Source of the DNA: Geosiphon pyriformis
Taxonomy: Eukaryota; Glomeromycota; Glomeromycetes; Archaeosporales; Geosiphonaceae
Reading direction: 5' to 3'
DNA: 64,000 nucleotides
NCBI GenBank assembly: GCA_016748015.1
Contig: JAAOMT010000109.1
Span: 84,769 to 148,768, forward strand
Shown: positions 32,065 to 55,984 of the stretch, piece after piece
Position numbering within the stretch: the stretch's first letter is position 1
Layout: each line of letters opens with the position of its first letter
Program-made: the position numbers and the translations under genes
Notes under the pieces: model-generated
What the model saw: only the letters and a program-made list of their open reading frames with translations
Database searches by the model: none
What the model was told of the DNA's origin: nothing

Positions 32065-33288
32065 TTTTTCAATCAATATCATCTTTAATTAAAGAGTTTC
32101 CTCTTTTACAAATCTTTTTACCTTTTGTCTGTAAACATACATGTCATCATCCGGAGAACAACTTTATAATGAAAAGTTTCATATCATATAGTCCATGTGA
32201 TTTTTCCAATATCAAAAAAGTTTCGGATTTTCTTGTTTACCATTTTTGATGATACTGAAAAAAATTTTCCAAAAATTCAAATTTGTTTTCTCAAATCTTT
32301 CCCAAAGTTATCATTGTTAGCGATTAAATCAAAAAGTTTTATATCACTGACTTTTTATCCAATCAAATATTAAATCGCAAAAATGATTAACACCCAAAAT
32401 GACCTTCGAACATATATTTCTTGATATGACGAACAAATTTTAATTTTCGAGGTAAAAGTAAAAAAAAAGGATTTGAATTATATTCTTTGGAAGAATTTAC
32501 GTTTTTGTAAATTTTTCTTCGTCCTAAATTGAAAATTGGTTGTAATGTAAGGAAGTTTGTCAAAAATATTTCAAAGTCCATGTAGCATACGAATATTATT
32601 ATTTGTTGAACTTAACACACACCGAATTCTATTTTAGGCCTTTTGTAATGTTCTTCGGTAACATAGTCATCTAAAAGGAACCCTAGGGTTAAATGGCTCG
32701 TTTCTTGGTTTTAAAATTTCCTTTTTTTTTAAGTTAATTGAGGCCTTTAATGCTTGAGATTTTTGATCAGAGTTAATGAAAAGTAACCAACTTTTTTTTG
32801 AATTCTCTTCACTAATAAAAACTATATTTTAGCAGCATTTATACAGATTTATCCAATCAATAGATAGAAACCTCAAAAAATGCTGTGGTTCTTTGACATT
32901 GAAAATCTTCCTTTTTAAAATTTGTTTATCAAGTTTAATATGAGAACTGTTTTATTAAATTAAATAAAAGCAAGTGGAAATACAAAAGTAATTACAAGTT
33001 TGGTGAATAATATTGATATACAATTAAGATTCAAAATCTTTTTGTTGCGAATAGAATAGTCTTGATAAATTTGACCTTTAGTGTTCATTATTAAAGTTTA
33101 GTTAAAGATTTCGAATTCGTTGTTAACTAATCTATATAATTTTCAAAATTTTTCCTGAGCCTGGTAGAGTATGCCTGTAAGCCAAAGATTCCGACCAAAA
33201 AGTTTTCTCAAACTTCGATTTGGTGATAAGTTCGTGCGAAGAGAATGACGGTGATGATCAAGAAAAGAGTATTATTGATACAACTTTT
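32065..33288. other. Intergenic; right part duplicated at 55.5-56.0 kb
   Basis: No gene I can support. From about 32810 the sequence reappears, inverted, up to about 55965 (TATTTTAGCAGCATTTATACA here against its reverse complement there). This is the 3' flank of the CaaX ORF. Confidence 0.5.
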
Positions 33289-33420
33289 TTACATGATCGA
33301 ACATTGACCGGTACCACTACCATCGTCTGGGTCACCAGTTGGTCCTTTAATAGAGCCATTTCCAGGTGCGATGACTGAGAGAGGATTGAATGAGGATTGA
33401 TTGTTGGTTGTTGGTTGCAT
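33289..33420 (-). CDS. 43-residue CaaX-box peptide, pheromone-precursor-like architecture
   Basis: An intact ORF from the ATG at 33420 to the TAA at 33289-33291, too short for usual gene finding. It begins MQPTTNNQSSFNPLSV, has a Gly/Asp-rich middle (GPTGDPDDGSGTG) and ends QCSIM-stop. C-S-I-M is a CaaX box whose final Met predicts farnesylation. Fungal lipopeptide mating-pheromone precursors are about 35-45 residues, hydrophilic and CaaX-terminated, and the layout matches; the sequence itself is not alignable from memory. A TATAAAG element lies about 105 bases upstream and no intron is needed. A decayed copy at 55387-55496 keeps the Cys, a CaaX-like end (CLIM) and the stop. Alternatives: a chance ORF in the trailer of the adjacent family pseudogene, or another small prenylated protein. 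A G-protein gamma subunit is unlikely because there is no coiled coil. Confidence 0.45.
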   Translation of the reverse strand: MQPTTNNQSSFNPLSVIAPGNGSIKGPTGDPDDGSGTGQCSIM

Positions 33421-33903
33421 TTTTCTTCAAGTTATTTGATTTAATTTGAATATGATGGTTTTTTCTTTTCTTTTGGTCGTTTTGGTTGGATTGAATGAAA
33501 AGAAATTGGGAAGGCAAGACCAGCTTTATAGAAAAAAATCATAGTCTTCATATTATCATTCATCAATAGGAACAATATTAATTGAATTAGAATGTTAAAA
33601 CCGAAAATTCTGACCAATCACCGTTTAGATTTATATTATTATTCAGCGGACCCATTGTTAAGCTATCCCAACAATGTCCTAAACGGTCTAAATAATATTC
33701 AAAATTCAATTTATTAATTATCCGTGAAAAAGCCAGGAGACAGAGCATTGTTCTTTTCATCGAGTACATTCATGTTCAAATTCACCCATTAAGGAAATTT
33801 TTTTACGCAGATTAATTCTTGAAACGTGATACTACCACCTTTGTATCGAACAATGCTAAAAAGCGTTACGCTACATTATTATGAAAAAAAATTCATAGCT
33901 ATT
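33421..33903. other. Spacer between family pseudogene and CaaX ORF
   Basis: Contains the putative promoter and leader of the CaaX ORF. A 60-codon minus ORF (33587-33769) has no motif, and most of it is missing from the duplicate at 55.2 kb, so I do not call it. Confidence 0.4.
33524..33530 (-). promoter_or_regulatory. TATA box for the CaaX ORF
   Basis: The minus strand reads CTATAAAGCTGG, with TATAAAG at 33530-33524, 104-110 bases before the ATG at 33420. The decayed duplicate has CTAAAAAGCTGG at the matching place, so the element is lost there. Confidence 0.4.
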
Positions 33904-35916
33904 AGTAGTTGATCCCCTTTTTGGATCTTTTTCGCCGAGTAAAACTCGTTGATCGAATATATTCTACATTTTGATTTTTTGGTTTCCGCTTTCTTCTATC
34001 GAATATTTCTTTCTGGTATTGATTATCTTTGGAAAACATCTCTGCCTTGCGCACGATGTCATTCTGAACATTGAAAATATAGGAGTAAGCAATTATCTTT
34101 TAATAATAAGAAGGATGCTCATCCTTACCTTAAAAAAATAAAGAACTTCATTTGAGTCAATTGGGATGGGAAATGAAAATCATCCCCTTGGAAGCCAAAA
34201 TAGAGGCCATCATCAACCAAGTTAATCCCAATGAGGCGGCCACTCAAAGCTGTAAACTGGAATCCAAAGATCACGAGATTCTCAGCTACATTTACCAAAA
34301 TGTTTTTCCTCAAGAATTCATTGAGGACGCATTGATTGGTGCGAAAGCATTTGCTGCGATCCCTCACAGCCTTACTGGGAGTGCTAGCCCGAGCGAACTC
34401 CGAATGGCTCAACTCGACGTCGTTGCTGCGGCACGTGATCCGCAAATCGATTTTGCGGCCCGTCGATGTTGCTTTCGATATCGTTTTGCCCATAAAAAAT
34501 TAAGTTAGTAAAATTAGGAAAATTTAAATTAAATCAATTCACCCTTACCAATGGAGACAAATTTTTTCTGCAACATCAGCAAAAACAATATCCAGAATAG
34601 GTGCCAACATCTGTGATATAATCAATTTCTGTGAGTTTTTGCTTTTCACCCAATGCATCAACGAATAGAGTTGAATTTTTCAAAAACATATCCAAGCTAG
34701 TAATAAAAATCAAAATTCAGTTTAATAAATCAAATAACCAGTTAAAAAAACACAATAACATACATTATTAAGTATATTTTGATGATTTGTTGATACTTGA
34801 AGCTCCTTGTTTCATCCTTCATTTCATCTAAGATAAAGTTCTTTGCTTCCAAGTACTTATGGTTACCGCACATCTGAAGAAAAAAAATTAGTCGTGTTAT
34901 AAATAATAATTTCTCCAAGATTAATAAACTATTTCCAAACCTCATCTATTTTTTTCACACTTTCATGGATAATGCCTTCGAATTTTAATGGTGTGATATT
35001 GAGCTGACCATATACTTTGGCCTTCAGATCATCCCACTCTTCACCAAAGAATGTCCACATGCCATTATCAAATTCAGATGTTAAATCAACAATGCAGGAT
35101 AAACCAAGCCTATAATTGAATTTGGTTATTTTCATGGGTTCAATCGATAAAAAATTATTATATGTATTATACCTAATAACACTCATCACAAATGCATCAG
35201 GTTTCTTGGCCTTTTTTTGTGATTCTCCTCCCAAACATTCCTTGCATTATTTGCAAGAACTTCTGTCACCGATTCGCCATTTTTTAACTTCCATTCTGAA
35301 TCTTTCGAGGAAGAAGGAGCATCAAAGGGATTTGATAAAGAAACTTCATCATCCCTGCTTTTTTTATCCTTATATTCGTCATCTTTATCATCCTCTTTGT
35401 CATCACTGCTGCTATCATCAGTTGAATCAACTCCCAACAACTTTTGATTAAAATTCCATGTGCAAAAAAATTAATGAATTGACTGTTCAGATTTAACATT
35501 AATAATATACATGTATATATCCATACCTTCTTTACAGATGAAGTTGGTGATGGTGAAACTTGGTCAAAAGACTCTTCATCCCACTGGTTTCTCTGTATTA
35601 TACAGAATAATTAACAAGTTAATTCTTATTCAAAATATAAACTACTATGTAATTACCTCTTCTTTAACATAGATTTTATTCCAGAACTCTCTAACAGTGG
35701 CTGAATTAATATAAGTGTCAAATTCAGCGAGTAGGAGTTGGCTTTGGTTTTTTCGACGGTTTGTTCATTTTTTTCAAGAGCCACAGCTTTCAAGACTTCA
35801 GATAAAGCTTGCTCTGCCTGTTGCTTTTGAGAGTAAGAGAATTTGAACTTTTTAAAGAACTTAATAGCGTTAAAATCCTTTAATATAGTTTCTTTTGTCC
35901 ATTTAGTGTAATCCAT
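33904..35916 (-). pseudogene. Lineage-specific multicopy family protein (WTFFGEEWD family), decayed
   Basis: The minus strand starts MDYTKWTKETILKDF at 35916. It continues through RNQWDEESFDQVSPSPTSSV, an acidic stretch (DDSSSDDKEDDKDDEYKDKK), PDAFVMSVIR, LGLSCIVDLTSEFDNGMW, TFFGEEWDDLKAKVYGQ, CGNHKYLEAKNFILDEMKD, MLAPILDIVFADVAEKICLH, GRKIDLRITCRSNDVELSHS, KCFRTNQCVLNEF, IGINLVDDGLYFGF and a basic end (FTRRKRSKKGINY-stop). I recall this layout from a large unnamed Rhizophagus family; the function is unknown. Introns are short GT-AG. Three lesions: a one-base loss in an A run near 35200 (frame change at NVWEENHKK), a two-base deletion near 34610 relative to the 54.5 kb copy, and an acceptor changed from TAG to TAT near 34487. 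The 34345-34500 exon is strikingly GC- and CpG-rich. Confidence 0.75.
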
Positions 35917-36264
35917 TATAAAGTTGCTATTAGAAAAGAGGTTTAAAGGAAGGGTATAACGCGCGAAGTAAACGAAAAAAGCGCGATCGTGCGTCATGTT
36001 ATATGATCATAAACTAATTTAAATGTTCTAATTAATGATTGGATAAATTATAATTGTTATGGTTACACACCTTTTACATTTTAAAAAAATTAACATAGAC
36101 CGGAGGGCCAATAAAAAATGTTTGATGAGCCAAAGATCTATTATTTTCAGACTTCTATCTAATATTCGTGTTTTTTATTAGGGATAATTTCCAAGATTAA
36201 ATTTCTATTTTAAAATATATATTCAAATGTGTGTTAGATTGATGCGTATAAATTGAGTTATTTT
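35917..36264. other. Spacer
   Basis: About 350 bases between the start of the family pseudogene and the end of the aspartic protease; no feature seen. Confidence 0.5.
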
Positions 36265-37983
36265 TTACCAATTAGAATCTGCCCGATTTGCAATACCGAC
36301 ACGTCTTTGACCGTAATCGAAAATTAAATAAAAGTTCTATCGTCGTATATTTTGTATTAAAATAATTAATAAAATTTTGTTAACATCACTCTTGCAATCG
36401 AATTCAATTATTATTTAAATCACCTTTATAAAGATCCCACCAACAATCCAGACGTCCTTCGGAGCCCCGGCTTGAATTCCCGAATAACAGTGCGTCTTGT
36501 CTACAGGCTCCAAAATCAAATCCTCAATTGGCACCACAAAATTACGACCTCCAAAAACAAAAGTAATCGCGTATTTCGACAAAGTTTTACACGGTATCAC
36601 CCAGGATCCGTTCAGATCCTCGGTATTATATTTTAGCTTTGTGAATTTTGAATTTGGTATGTTTTTATAGATTTGGTCCGCCGTTTGGTCATTTACGAGG
36701 ATTATCGTGGTCCCGGTGTCAATTACCGCTTTTCCACCGATATTTATAGGGTTATGGCCGACATACATGTTTGTTGCGGGAATCGCCCATTCCCTTTGGC
36801 TGACTACTTGAACGTATGTTATTGTGCCTAATATTATTAAGAATTTTACATTTAAATGTGAACTTTTTTTATCTAATATAAAATCAGATAAATTAAAAGA
36901 GAAAATCATTCTTGTTACCTTTCATTTTAGAATTATCAATTCCACCAAAAAGATATTCGCCACCACCACCTTTCTTCTTATGAATTAAGCGTACAGAAAA
37001 GACTGATATCTTAATCAATAGAAACAAAAAGAGAGATAAGATTCATTAAACTCCTCTTAATCCAGAAAAGAAACCACAAAAAATAGATTTCATGAAAAGA
37101 AATTTCTCAACTTACCAAAATATTAGAAATTATATTATCAAGTAGGGTTTTGAACCCAGAAATTCGAGAATTCATGGGCAGACCTAATCCCATAACACCA
37201 TCGATTACATCCCCTTGAAAATGATGTGTTTGATTGGTCGCTAATGCGAAACTTTGTTTTGAGACCTGAATGCCATCGAGATATACTGTTTCTAAAATTG
37301 ACAATTCAGAATAGTCAACTTACTTAGTTTTAAAATTAAAATTAGAAAAAGATATTTTTGTTTTTACTCTGAATTTTAAAAAACTTTTTCCTCTTTAAGA
37401 GAAATTCGTCTTTACCCTGAGCAATAAATCCTGAAACATTAGAGCCATCTAAATACCCTGTATTCCATTTAAGGTTCGGTTCAATTTTTTTGAAAGTCGA
37501 AGACTTTTTCGGATCATATAATGTCTTTCCTTTACACGCTTGACAAAACACAGAGGTAACCCAAAGATCCGAGGACCCAGTATCAAAATTTAGCGTGAAA
37601 TTTCTTCGCGGGGTACCAAGTTGAATATCGCCTATCCATTCAGCATCATCACCTACCGTACTGACTGGAAGACGACCAGAATGTGAAGTTAAATATAGGC
37701 ACGGTATGGTGTCAAGATTAAAAGAATTTAAATGTAGATATTTTTTGTGATATCTCGTTACTAATTCTTTAGGATTATGTTTAATAACTGCTTTTTGATG
37801 AGCAAAAGGGGTATCGCGTTTGTATAGGGTATTATGACGAAGTGTGATCAAGATTGTACCATTTTTTGAAGAATTGGATGAATTTAACAACAATGGTATA
37901 CCTTGGGTTAATGAAGCAGTAATAAAATTTATAGAAAAGAAAAAGATTGATAAATTGAGGACGGAATTTTTATAGGGTAACAT
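36265..37983 (-). CDS. Secreted pepsin-like aspartic protease (A1 family)
   Basis: Minus-strand exons 37983-37416, 37291-37116, 37009-36919, 36827-36424 and 36336-36265 join in frame to 436 codons with GT-AG introns. The protein opens with a signal peptide (MLPYKNSVLNLSIFFFSINF), then a propeptide of about 80 residues with N-glycosylation sites. The first catalytic site is NFDTGSSDLWV (Asp about 134), the flap is GYLDGSNVSGF, the second site is VIDTGTTIILV (Asp about 315), and the end is DVWIVGGIFIK joined to NFYLIFDYGQRRVGIANRAD. Both catalytic aspartates are present and the length is typical of fungal A1 proteases. It would cleave extracellular or vacuolar proteins at acidic pH. No GPI-type tail. 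Part of the gene (36513-37180) is copied as a dead fragment at 53.5 kb. Confidence 0.93.
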
Positions 37984-39190
37984 ATTTATTATTTCAATCA
38001 GCGGAGATTGAGAAATTTCAACTTCGAAAATTTTAAGCGGAATAAAATAAATATATTCGAAAGAAATTAAATTTAATGCTTGATCTGTAACAAAAGTGTA
38101 AATGAAGAAAGGAAATGGATACCAATATATATATATATATATATCTCTCTCTCTCTCTCTTTTTATTAGTGAATTTCAATGCAACTTATGAAATAGAAAA
38201 GATTTTTACTATAGAAGTGGCATTAATCTGACGCAAAATTTTTGAAAAACCTTATACGTGGAAGTTGTTTCTGAACGTTATTTTGAAATTTTTATTTGAA
38301 TCGAGATGAAAAATAGTCTTTGATGTAGAGGGAGATATCAAGGGACAAGAAACCGTTTATTTGCATTTGAATCTCTGGTTTTACTGAATAGTTATTTCAA
38401 ATTGTCGTGTCAGAGATTCAAGTGAATCACAGATTTACATTTTAAGTAAGTGAAAATGAAATTGTTTATGAAAACAAATGACCAAACAGTAATCTTTTTT
38501 CACCACATCCCCAAATTATAATTAAGAATGGTTTCAAACAGAACATATTTTCAAAATTGATATCCCTAATATGCGACAAGTATCCCTATGTTTACATATT
38601 ATTAAGTATAGCAAAATAACCACCTTTTTCAATCATCTCAAGAGAAACAAAAAATTATTGTTCGGAAATATAAAATTAAAAAAAAAATTTTTTTTCTGGA
38701 AGAAAATAAATTTCATTAGGTGAAAAACTTGCAATTAATTAAATCGATTTCCTAAGATGAGATTTTGACAGGTGAGACAATTAAAATTCGTTATCCTCCG
38801 GAAGTTACATGCATTGTTTCCCATTTCGATTAGTGATTATCACGAGGAAACTGTTGATCCTGAACAATGGGTGGCGTTATCAGTAAAATGCATGTACATG
38901 CTGCTTTTTTTCACCAAAACTACGCACAAAAAATAATTTTAATAAAAATAAATATCTTTAAAATTTGCATTTTAGAAATTTTAATAGAAATTTTAGTAAC
39001 TCTCTCTAATCAATTTTGACTTAAATTATTTATTTAGAAGCATAAGACTTTGTCTCTTTCAAAACATGTCACTATTTATTATAGAATTCAAAAGATTAAT
39101 TAAAAGTGATGTTTATGCAATAGATAACTAAAAGATTAAAGTTTATGAAATTAAATAGTAATAAGAATTAATATTATATTAATGTAGCTG
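37984..39190. other. Intergenic: promoter side of the aspartic protease, 3' side of GH16
   Basis: No gene seen. A compound microsatellite lies about 140 bases upstream of the protease ATG. Confidence 0.5.
38125..38160. repeat. Compound (AT)10(CT)8 microsatellite
   Basis: AT units at 38125-38144 run directly into CT units at 38145-38160, about 140-175 bases upstream of the aspartic protease start. On the coding strand this is a GA run followed by an AT run, i.e. a purine tract in the promoter. Confidence 0.85.
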
Positions 39191-53497: not shown

Positions 53498-54083
53498 AAT
53501 CAAATCATAAATTGATACCACAAAATTACGACCTCCAAAAACAAAAGTAATCGCGTATTTCGACAAAGTTTTACACGGTACCACCCAGATCCTCGGTATT
53601 ATATTTTGGTATGTGAATTTTGAATTTTGGTATGTTATTATAGATTTGGTCCGCCGTTTGGTCCTTTACGAGGATTATCGTAGTCCCGTTGTCAATTACC
53701 GCTTTTCCACCAATATTTATAGAGTTATGGCCGACATACATGCTGCGGGAATTTCCCATTCTCTTTGGCTGGCTACTTGAACGTATGTTATTGTGCCTAA
53801 TATTATTAAGAATTTTTATAGTAACAAGAGTTTTGGCTGAGATTTTACACATTTGAATGTGAACTTTTTTTATCTAATATAAAATTAGAAGATCATTCTT
53901 GTTATTAATTCCACCAAAAAGATATTCACTACCACCTTTCTTCTTATGAATTAAGCATACCGAAAGACTGATATCTTAATCAATAGAAACAAAAAGAGAG
54001 ATAAGATTCATTAAACTCTCTTTATCCAGAAAAGAAACCACAAAAAATGGGTTTTGAACCCCGAAATCCGGGAATTCATGGGC
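53498..54083 (-). pseudogene. Aspartic protease fragment, dead copy
   Basis: The minus strand matches exons 2 to 4 and their introns of the protease at 36.3-38.0 kb: MYVGHNSINIGGKAV, then VIDNGTTIILV, where the catalytic D-T-G has become D-N-G, and IYNNIPKF. Small deletions break the frame, the exon 3 copy has lost bases, and no signal peptide, first catalytic site or C-terminus is present. Confidence 0.85.
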
Positions 54084-55210
54084 AAAAGTATATGGTCAGC
54101 TCAATATCATATCATTAAATTCGAAGGCATTATTCATGAAAGTGTGAAAAAAATAGATGAGGTTTGAAAATAGTTTATTAATCTTGGAAAACTTTTCATT
54201 ATAAACGATTAATTTTTTTTCTTCAAATGTGGGGTAGTCACAAGTTTTTGGAAGCAAAGAACTTAATCTTAAATGAAATGAAGGATGAAACAAAGAGCTC
54301 TAAGTATCAAAAAGTCATTAAAATATACTTTATAATGTATTTTTTTAACTCTGTTTATTTGATTTATTAAACTGAATTATGATTTTTATTACTTGTTTTG
54401 ATATGTTTTTAAAAAATTCAACTGTATTTGTTAATACATTGGGCGAAAAGCAAAAACTCACGGAAATAGAGTATATAACAAAGATGTTGGCACTTATTCT
54501 GGATATTGTTTTTGCTGATATTGAAGAAAAAATTTGCTTCTATTGGTAAGTATGAATTGATTTTATTTAATTTTTTCTTAATTTTACTAAGTTAAATAAT
54601 TTAAATTTATTTTTAGGAGCAAAATTGATTTGCAAGTCATGTATTACAGCAACAATGTTAAGCCATTCGGAGTGCGTTCAGGTTAGCACTTTCAGTAAGG
54701 CTGTGAGGGATCGCAGCAATGTCTTTGCACTAATCAATGCATCCTCAATGAATACTTGAAAAAAAGCATTTTGGTAAATAAAGCTGAAAATTTGATGATT
54801 TTTGGATTTTAGTTTACAGCTTTGAGTGGCTGTCTTATTGAGATTGACTTGGTTGATAATGGGCTCTATTTTGGCTTCCAAGGGGATAATTTTCATTTCT
54901 CATCCCAATTGACTCAAATGAAGTCATTGCAATATACACTTGAGGTTCTTTATTTTTTTAAGATAAGAATGAGCATTTTTATTATTATTAAAAGATAATT
55001 GCTTACTCTATATTTTTAATGTTTAGGATGACATTGTGCACAAGGCAGAGATGCTTTCCAAAGATAATTAATGCCAGAAAGAAATGTTTGATAGAAGAAA
55101 ACAGAAACTAACAAATCAAAAAGTAGAATATATTCAATCAACGGATTTTACTCTGCAAAAAAAATCCAAAAGAGATCAACTTCGAATAGATCTGGGAAAT
55201 AATATAAATC
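54084..55210 (+). pseudogene. WTFFGEEWD-family gene, second decayed copy
   Basis: The plus strand matches the right part of the gene at 33.9-35.9 kb from KVYGQLNI onward: FEGIIHESVKKIDEV, GSHKFLEAKNLILNEMKDE, TEIEYITKMLALILDIVFAD, KIDLQVMYYSNN, IGLFW-type remnants and a basic end. It keeps the reading at ITKM, where the first copy has lost two bases, and a proper TTTTAG acceptor (before 54617), which the first copy has lost. It has its own stops (for example in the exon after 54617) and lacks the 5' half. Confidence 0.8.
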
Positions 55211-55386
55211 TAAATAGTTATTGATCATTTTATTCTTATTGATAAATGCTGATATAAAGGTTATGATTTTTTTCTAAAAAGCTGGTCTTGTCTTCCCAAT
55301 TTCTTTTCATTCAAATCAATTCAATTCAACTAAAATGACCAAAAAAAACCCATCATATTCAAATTAAATCAAATAACTTGAAAAAA

Positions 55387-55496
55387 ATGCAACCAACAAC
55401 CAACAATCAGTCATTGCATCTAGAAATAGCTCTATTAAAGAACTAACTGGTAGCTCAGATAATGGTAGTGGTACTGGTCAATGTTTGATTATGTAA
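55387..55496 (+). pseudogene. Decayed copy of the CaaX ORF
   Basis: Starts with the same 23 bases as the ORF at 33.3-33.4 kb (MQPTTNNQS), then lacks 22 bases, which shifts the frame into an early stop. Downstream, the original frame still ends QCLIM-stop. Nearly all base differences are C-to-T or G-to-A. Confidence 0.8.
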
Positions 55497-55984
55497 AAAT
55501 TTATAATTTTTTCTTGATCATCACCATCATTCTCTTCACACAAACTTATCACCAAATCAAAATTTGAAAAAACTTTTCGGTCGGAATCTTTGACTTACAC
55601 GCATAATCTACTAGGCTCAGAAACAATTTTGAGATTTAATATAAATTAGTTAACAACAAATTTGAAATCTTTACCTAAACTTCAATAATAAATACTAAAG
55701 ATCAAATTTATCAAAACTATTCTATTTGTAACAAAAAGATTTTGAATCTTAATTGTATATCAATATTATTTACCAAATCTGCAATTACTTTTGTATTTCT
55801 ACTTGCTTTTATTTAATCTAATAAAACAGTTTTCATATTATACTTAATAAACAAATATTAAAAGAAAGATTTTCAATGTCAAAGTACCACAGTATTTTTT
55901 AAGTTTTTATTTATTGATTGGATAAATCTGTATAAATGCTGCTAAAATATACTTTTTATTAGTAATGTTTTTTACTATTAAATT

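Follow-up and report, generated by a model that had tools for sequence, protein, structure and literature searches.

Prenylated peptide signals in fungi

The a-factor precursors of yeast, MFA1 and MFA2 (Pfam family PF17317), are short peptides that end in a CaaX box. Basidiomycete lipopeptide pheromones (PF08015) are likewise made from short CaaX-ending precursors and act through STE3-type receptors; at the basidiomycete pheromone/receptor loci, the peptide is encoded beside its receptor. In the Leotiomycetes, a putative a-factor was recognised by its small size, CaaX end, and conservation after similarity searches had failed (PMC10569646).

For arbuscular mycorrhizal (AM) fungi, Halary and colleagues (2013) described one STE3 gene, together with STE6, in Rhizophagus and Glomus cerebriforme, found neither an a-factor nor an alpha-factor gene, and called for new methods (PMC3834313). 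Pheromone genes were not upregulated in co-inoculated isolates (Mateus et al. 2020; PMC7490403), and R. irregularis has been judged likely to be asexual (Lee et al. 2024; PMC11414155). No report of an AM-fungal gene for a prenylated pheromone was found in the literature searched, which excludes most subscription papers and all preprints, and the original prediction's remark that mating peptides had not been described in this lineage is consistent with the account of Halary and colleagues (PMC3834313).

A 43-residue CaaX-ending gene

The window, that is, the whole 64-kb stretch of Geosiphon pyriformis DNA analysed here, carries on its minus strand an intron-free open reading frame (ORF) at 33420–33289, with its ATG at 33420–33418 and its stop codon (33291–33289) directly after the CaaX box CSIM. 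It translates to the 43-residue peptide MQPTTNNQSSFNPLSVIAPGNGSIKGPTGDPDDGSGTGQCSIM. Re-reading of the DNA confirmed the 43 codons, the strand, and the terminal QCSIM as originally reported. Loose CaaX ends occur on just two other small ORFs in the 64-kb window, both of which look unrelated. The 43-residue ORF is a real, selected coding gene, as detailed below, and it is proposed to encode the precursor of an a-factor-like peptide.

The precursor has no Pfam match and none to PF17317 (MFA1_2) at E values up to 10; it shares with the basidiomycete PF08015 pheromones a short, CaaX-ending form but not a recognised family. Residues 1–31 nevertheless align without gaps to yeast MFA1, with identities at M1, Q2, P3, T5, N21, I24, K25, G26, D30, and P31. 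In shuffling tests, this alignment gave P values of 0.001–0.002 over the whole sequence and 0.003–0.008 when M1 and the CaaX box were left aside, values that describe one comparison with the canonical sequence, checked only by its PF17317 match at 1.7e-18. The ungapped match suggests, rather than proves, homology to the yeast a-factor precursor. The two differ in that the Geosiphon peptide is seven residues longer between the DP pair and the cysteine and ends in CSIM instead of CVIA; moreover, yeast has two a-factor genes, whereas Geosiphon has at least 33.

A dispersed gene family under selection

A search of the window's own genome assembly (124.7 Mb in 406 contigs) returned 37 matches, of which 33 read as intact ORFs of 43 codons, and the CSIM end is kept in 33 of 33; these counts, as well as those of decayed copies, are lower bounds. 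When the intact copy that had diverged furthest served as the query for a second genome search, no further family members appeared. The intact copies are spread over 12 contigs, both as arrays and as singletons, with clusters on C380, C241, C216, C283, and C318 and single copies on C353 (the window's contig), C254, C160, C394, C402, C401, and C356. Decayed copies lie on C216 (at 39722), C83, and C393 and in the window near 55386. All intact copies end in QCSIM and their proteins are 79%–100% identical to that of the window copy; the 33 genes comprise 29 distinct coding sequences. Among the prokaryote genome contigs and viral contigs searched, there were no relatives, as expected for a fungal gene.

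Similarity between dispersed copies is mainly confined to the gene and its promoter, and some copies sit inside duplicated segments. In the stretch of C380 that was examined, which holds four copies, no other long ORF recurs alongside them. So many copies probably allow a single peptide to be made in large amounts.

Across the 33 intact paralogues, mean dN is 0.018 and mean dS is 0.604 (Nei–Gojobori), a ratio of about 0.03. Parsimony on a tree built from the genes plus their flanking sequence counted 149 silent and 23 replacement changes; the associated binomial p of 9e-69 ignores both tree uncertainty and codon composition and is read merely as 'very strong'. Gene conversion can homogenise copies, but it does not by itself produce this contrast between silent and replacement changes. 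The changes are also unevenly placed: codons 1–22 show 79 silent and 18 replacement changes, whereas codons 23–43 show 70 and 5, with all five replacements confined to two diverged copies (L034 and L035). In the window gene, this most conserved half, together with the stop codon and including the CaaX box, occupies 33289–33354 on the minus strand, and its near freedom from replacements is as expected if the mature peptide lies there, as is likely.

The caution that a CaaX end may arise by chance no longer applies to an end shared by all of these intact copies at such a dN/dS ratio. Frame-keeping homologues with a ratio below 1, which had been proposed as a check across Glomeromycotina assemblies, were found here, at a ratio far below that value, as paralogues of one genome, and the prediction stands to that extent. 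Support for the Leotiomycetes a-factor came by a similar route of recognition, although the sequence and lineage differ and the support here comes from paralogues within a single genome.

A negative control for selection is provided by the decayed copy in the window, which lies on the plus strand at 55386–55496 (boundaries approximate), 22 kb from the intact gene. A 22-bp deletion breaks its frame and its TATA box is altered, so copies that escape selection do decay. An inverted duplication was observed around both copies, pairing 32811–37022 with 54081–55963 and the region 36514–37180 with 53498–54084; three long pieces are approximately 81%–84% identical, and the intact gene lies close to one arm, its decayed counterpart on the opposite one.

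Promoter layout

A TATA box (TATAAA) lies on the minus strand at 33525–33530, starting 110 bases 5′ of the ATG, close to the 105 bases first estimated. In 32 of the 33 intact copies, the same motif is present between −103 and −147. Further 5′, on the same strand, is an ATTGTT site (33571–33576) that is conserved among the copies, followed at 33654–33675 by the inverted pair ATTGTT-N10-AACAAT; such a pair, with a spacer of 8–12 bases, is found upstream of 25 of the 33 copies. ATTGTT and AACAAT together occur 3.4 times per 300 bp upstream of the copies compared with 0.56 times in the window as a whole. The inverted pair is not unique to the family, since the window has one more, at 2231. The ATTGTT/AACAAT core resembles the sites of HMG-box proteins, making an HMG-box-type factor a candidate binder, judging by the motif. 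The pair is absent from the upstream region of the STE3 gene described below, and no promoter element common to both was found.

Receptor and processing enzymes

The original prediction had pointed to a Ste3-type receptor in the same genome as a check, and an intact one is present. The genome search found one STE3 gene (C303, 334886–335808) that, joined over two GT-AG introns, gives an uninterrupted protein of 526 residues with seven hydrophobic segments and a Pfam STE3 match at E 3e-70; the splice sites were picked for consensus fit and an open frame, and some neighbouring alternatives also leave the frame open. A search of solved structures with this receptor returned no real match. For STE2, the genome search gave no match, but the same search was silent in every control genome too, and so absence is not established.

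Unlike the arrangement at basidiomycete pheromone/receptor loci, no copy of the peptide gene lies within approximately 14 kb of STE3, where the few short CaaX ORFs look like chance, and one peptide is instead encoded in dozens of copies. About 2 kb downstream of STE3 is an ORF resembling a ferric reductase or NADPH oxidase, named by eye (locus L039, 8273–9748, plus strand). Aspartyl-protease-like ORFs were noted in the window itself at 36415–38175 on the minus strand, about 3 kb from the 43-codon gene; in yeast, the secreted aspartyl protease Bar1 breaks down a mating peptide.

ICMT, STE24, and prenyltransferase beta subunits (at three loci) are also encoded in the genome. CaaX-processing enzymes are eukaryotic housekeeping components, and their presence is only weakly informative.

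Possible roles of the peptide

The 43-residue ORF is probably the gene for an a-factor-like precursor whose farnesylated product is sensed by STE3; the selected multicopy CaaX family and the STE3 gene in the same genome support the lipopeptide pheromone precursor first proposed. Under this model, C40 would be farnesylated, the residues SIM removed, and the new C terminus methylated, and cleavage, possibly close to N21 as in yeast, would remove the N-terminal half. A STE6-type ABC transporter would then export the mature peptide, whose sequence would be approximately GSIKGPTGDPDDGSGTGQC or a shorter form of it. Detection of this peptide by the STE3 receptor would steer mating, or else hyphal recognition and fusion.

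The CaaX end alone predicts just prenylation, which would also suit a short protein that is never secreted but stays on the inner face of a membrane, working intracellularly as, say, a small regulator. Selection on the N-terminal half as well, with its 79 silent and 18 replacement changes, would fit such a protein. An intracellular role is nonetheless improbable: the product has 43 residues and no recognisable domain, its many near-identical copies stand in arrays, the genome's STE3 receptor is in need of a ligand, and the identities with the yeast a-factor precursor fall at the same positions. Still further from the data is the idea that the ORF arose by chance or was carried along by a mobile element, multiplying without serving any function. 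High copy number and the placement of some copies within duplicated segments would suit a passenger, but the dispersed copies are alike mainly over gene and promoter and the decayed copies display what loss of selection looks like; given also the copy number, the dN/dS of about 0.03, and the 149 silent against 23 replacement changes, this explanation was rejected as having next to no probability.

Alternatively, the peptide could be a prenylated signal unrelated to sex, directed at the plant host or serving self-fusion of hyphae. Because peptide and receptor are encoded in one genome, self-signalling is possible; furthermore, hyphae of AM fungi form anastomoses within a genotype, and a case has been made that R. 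irregularis is asexual (PMC11414155). STE3, however, is a family of mating pheromone receptors, and a purely non-sexual signal is regarded as unlikely, if a good deal less so than an intracellular protein. Its self-fusion variant overlaps with the a-factor-like signal preferred here.

Host lineage and significance

The AM-fungal pheromone-sensing pathway was described with a single STE3, as is also found in this genome, but without a pheromone gene (PMC3834313), and the CaaX family is a strong candidate for the ligand not found there. It is conceivable, though we would not put it at an even chance, that the peptide is the ligand of the AM-fungal STE3, is homologous to yeast a-factor, and is produced from an unusually large gene set, such that prenylated pheromones predate the Dikarya; homology to yeast a-factor would by itself make prenylated mating peptides older than that group. 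Evidence has been published on both sides of the question of sex in AM fungi, the symbionts of most land plants. A receptor was known but no signal had been reported, and a defined candidate peptide makes the question directly testable.

The AM-fungal claim depends on the host lineage, while the pheromone case does not. Glomeromycotina is plausible as this lineage. Primer AML1 matches the rRNA of the genome with one mismatch, as does AML2 by eye in the small-subunit (SSU) copy; primer FLR3 was not found in the genome, in which part of the LSU sequence is masked, and a primer for Rhizophagus EF1-alpha had no match there. AM fungi are reported to lack type I fatty acid synthase (PMC4771724), and the genome gave no match to PF08354, although failure to match counts for little in such a search. 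The SSU rRNA copy itself (L046, 25–1841, minus strand; near 1046280 on contig C320 of assembly G000) appears by eye to carry numerous C-to-T and G-to-A differences at sites that are normally conserved, and may be a decaying rDNA copy near the end of its contig.
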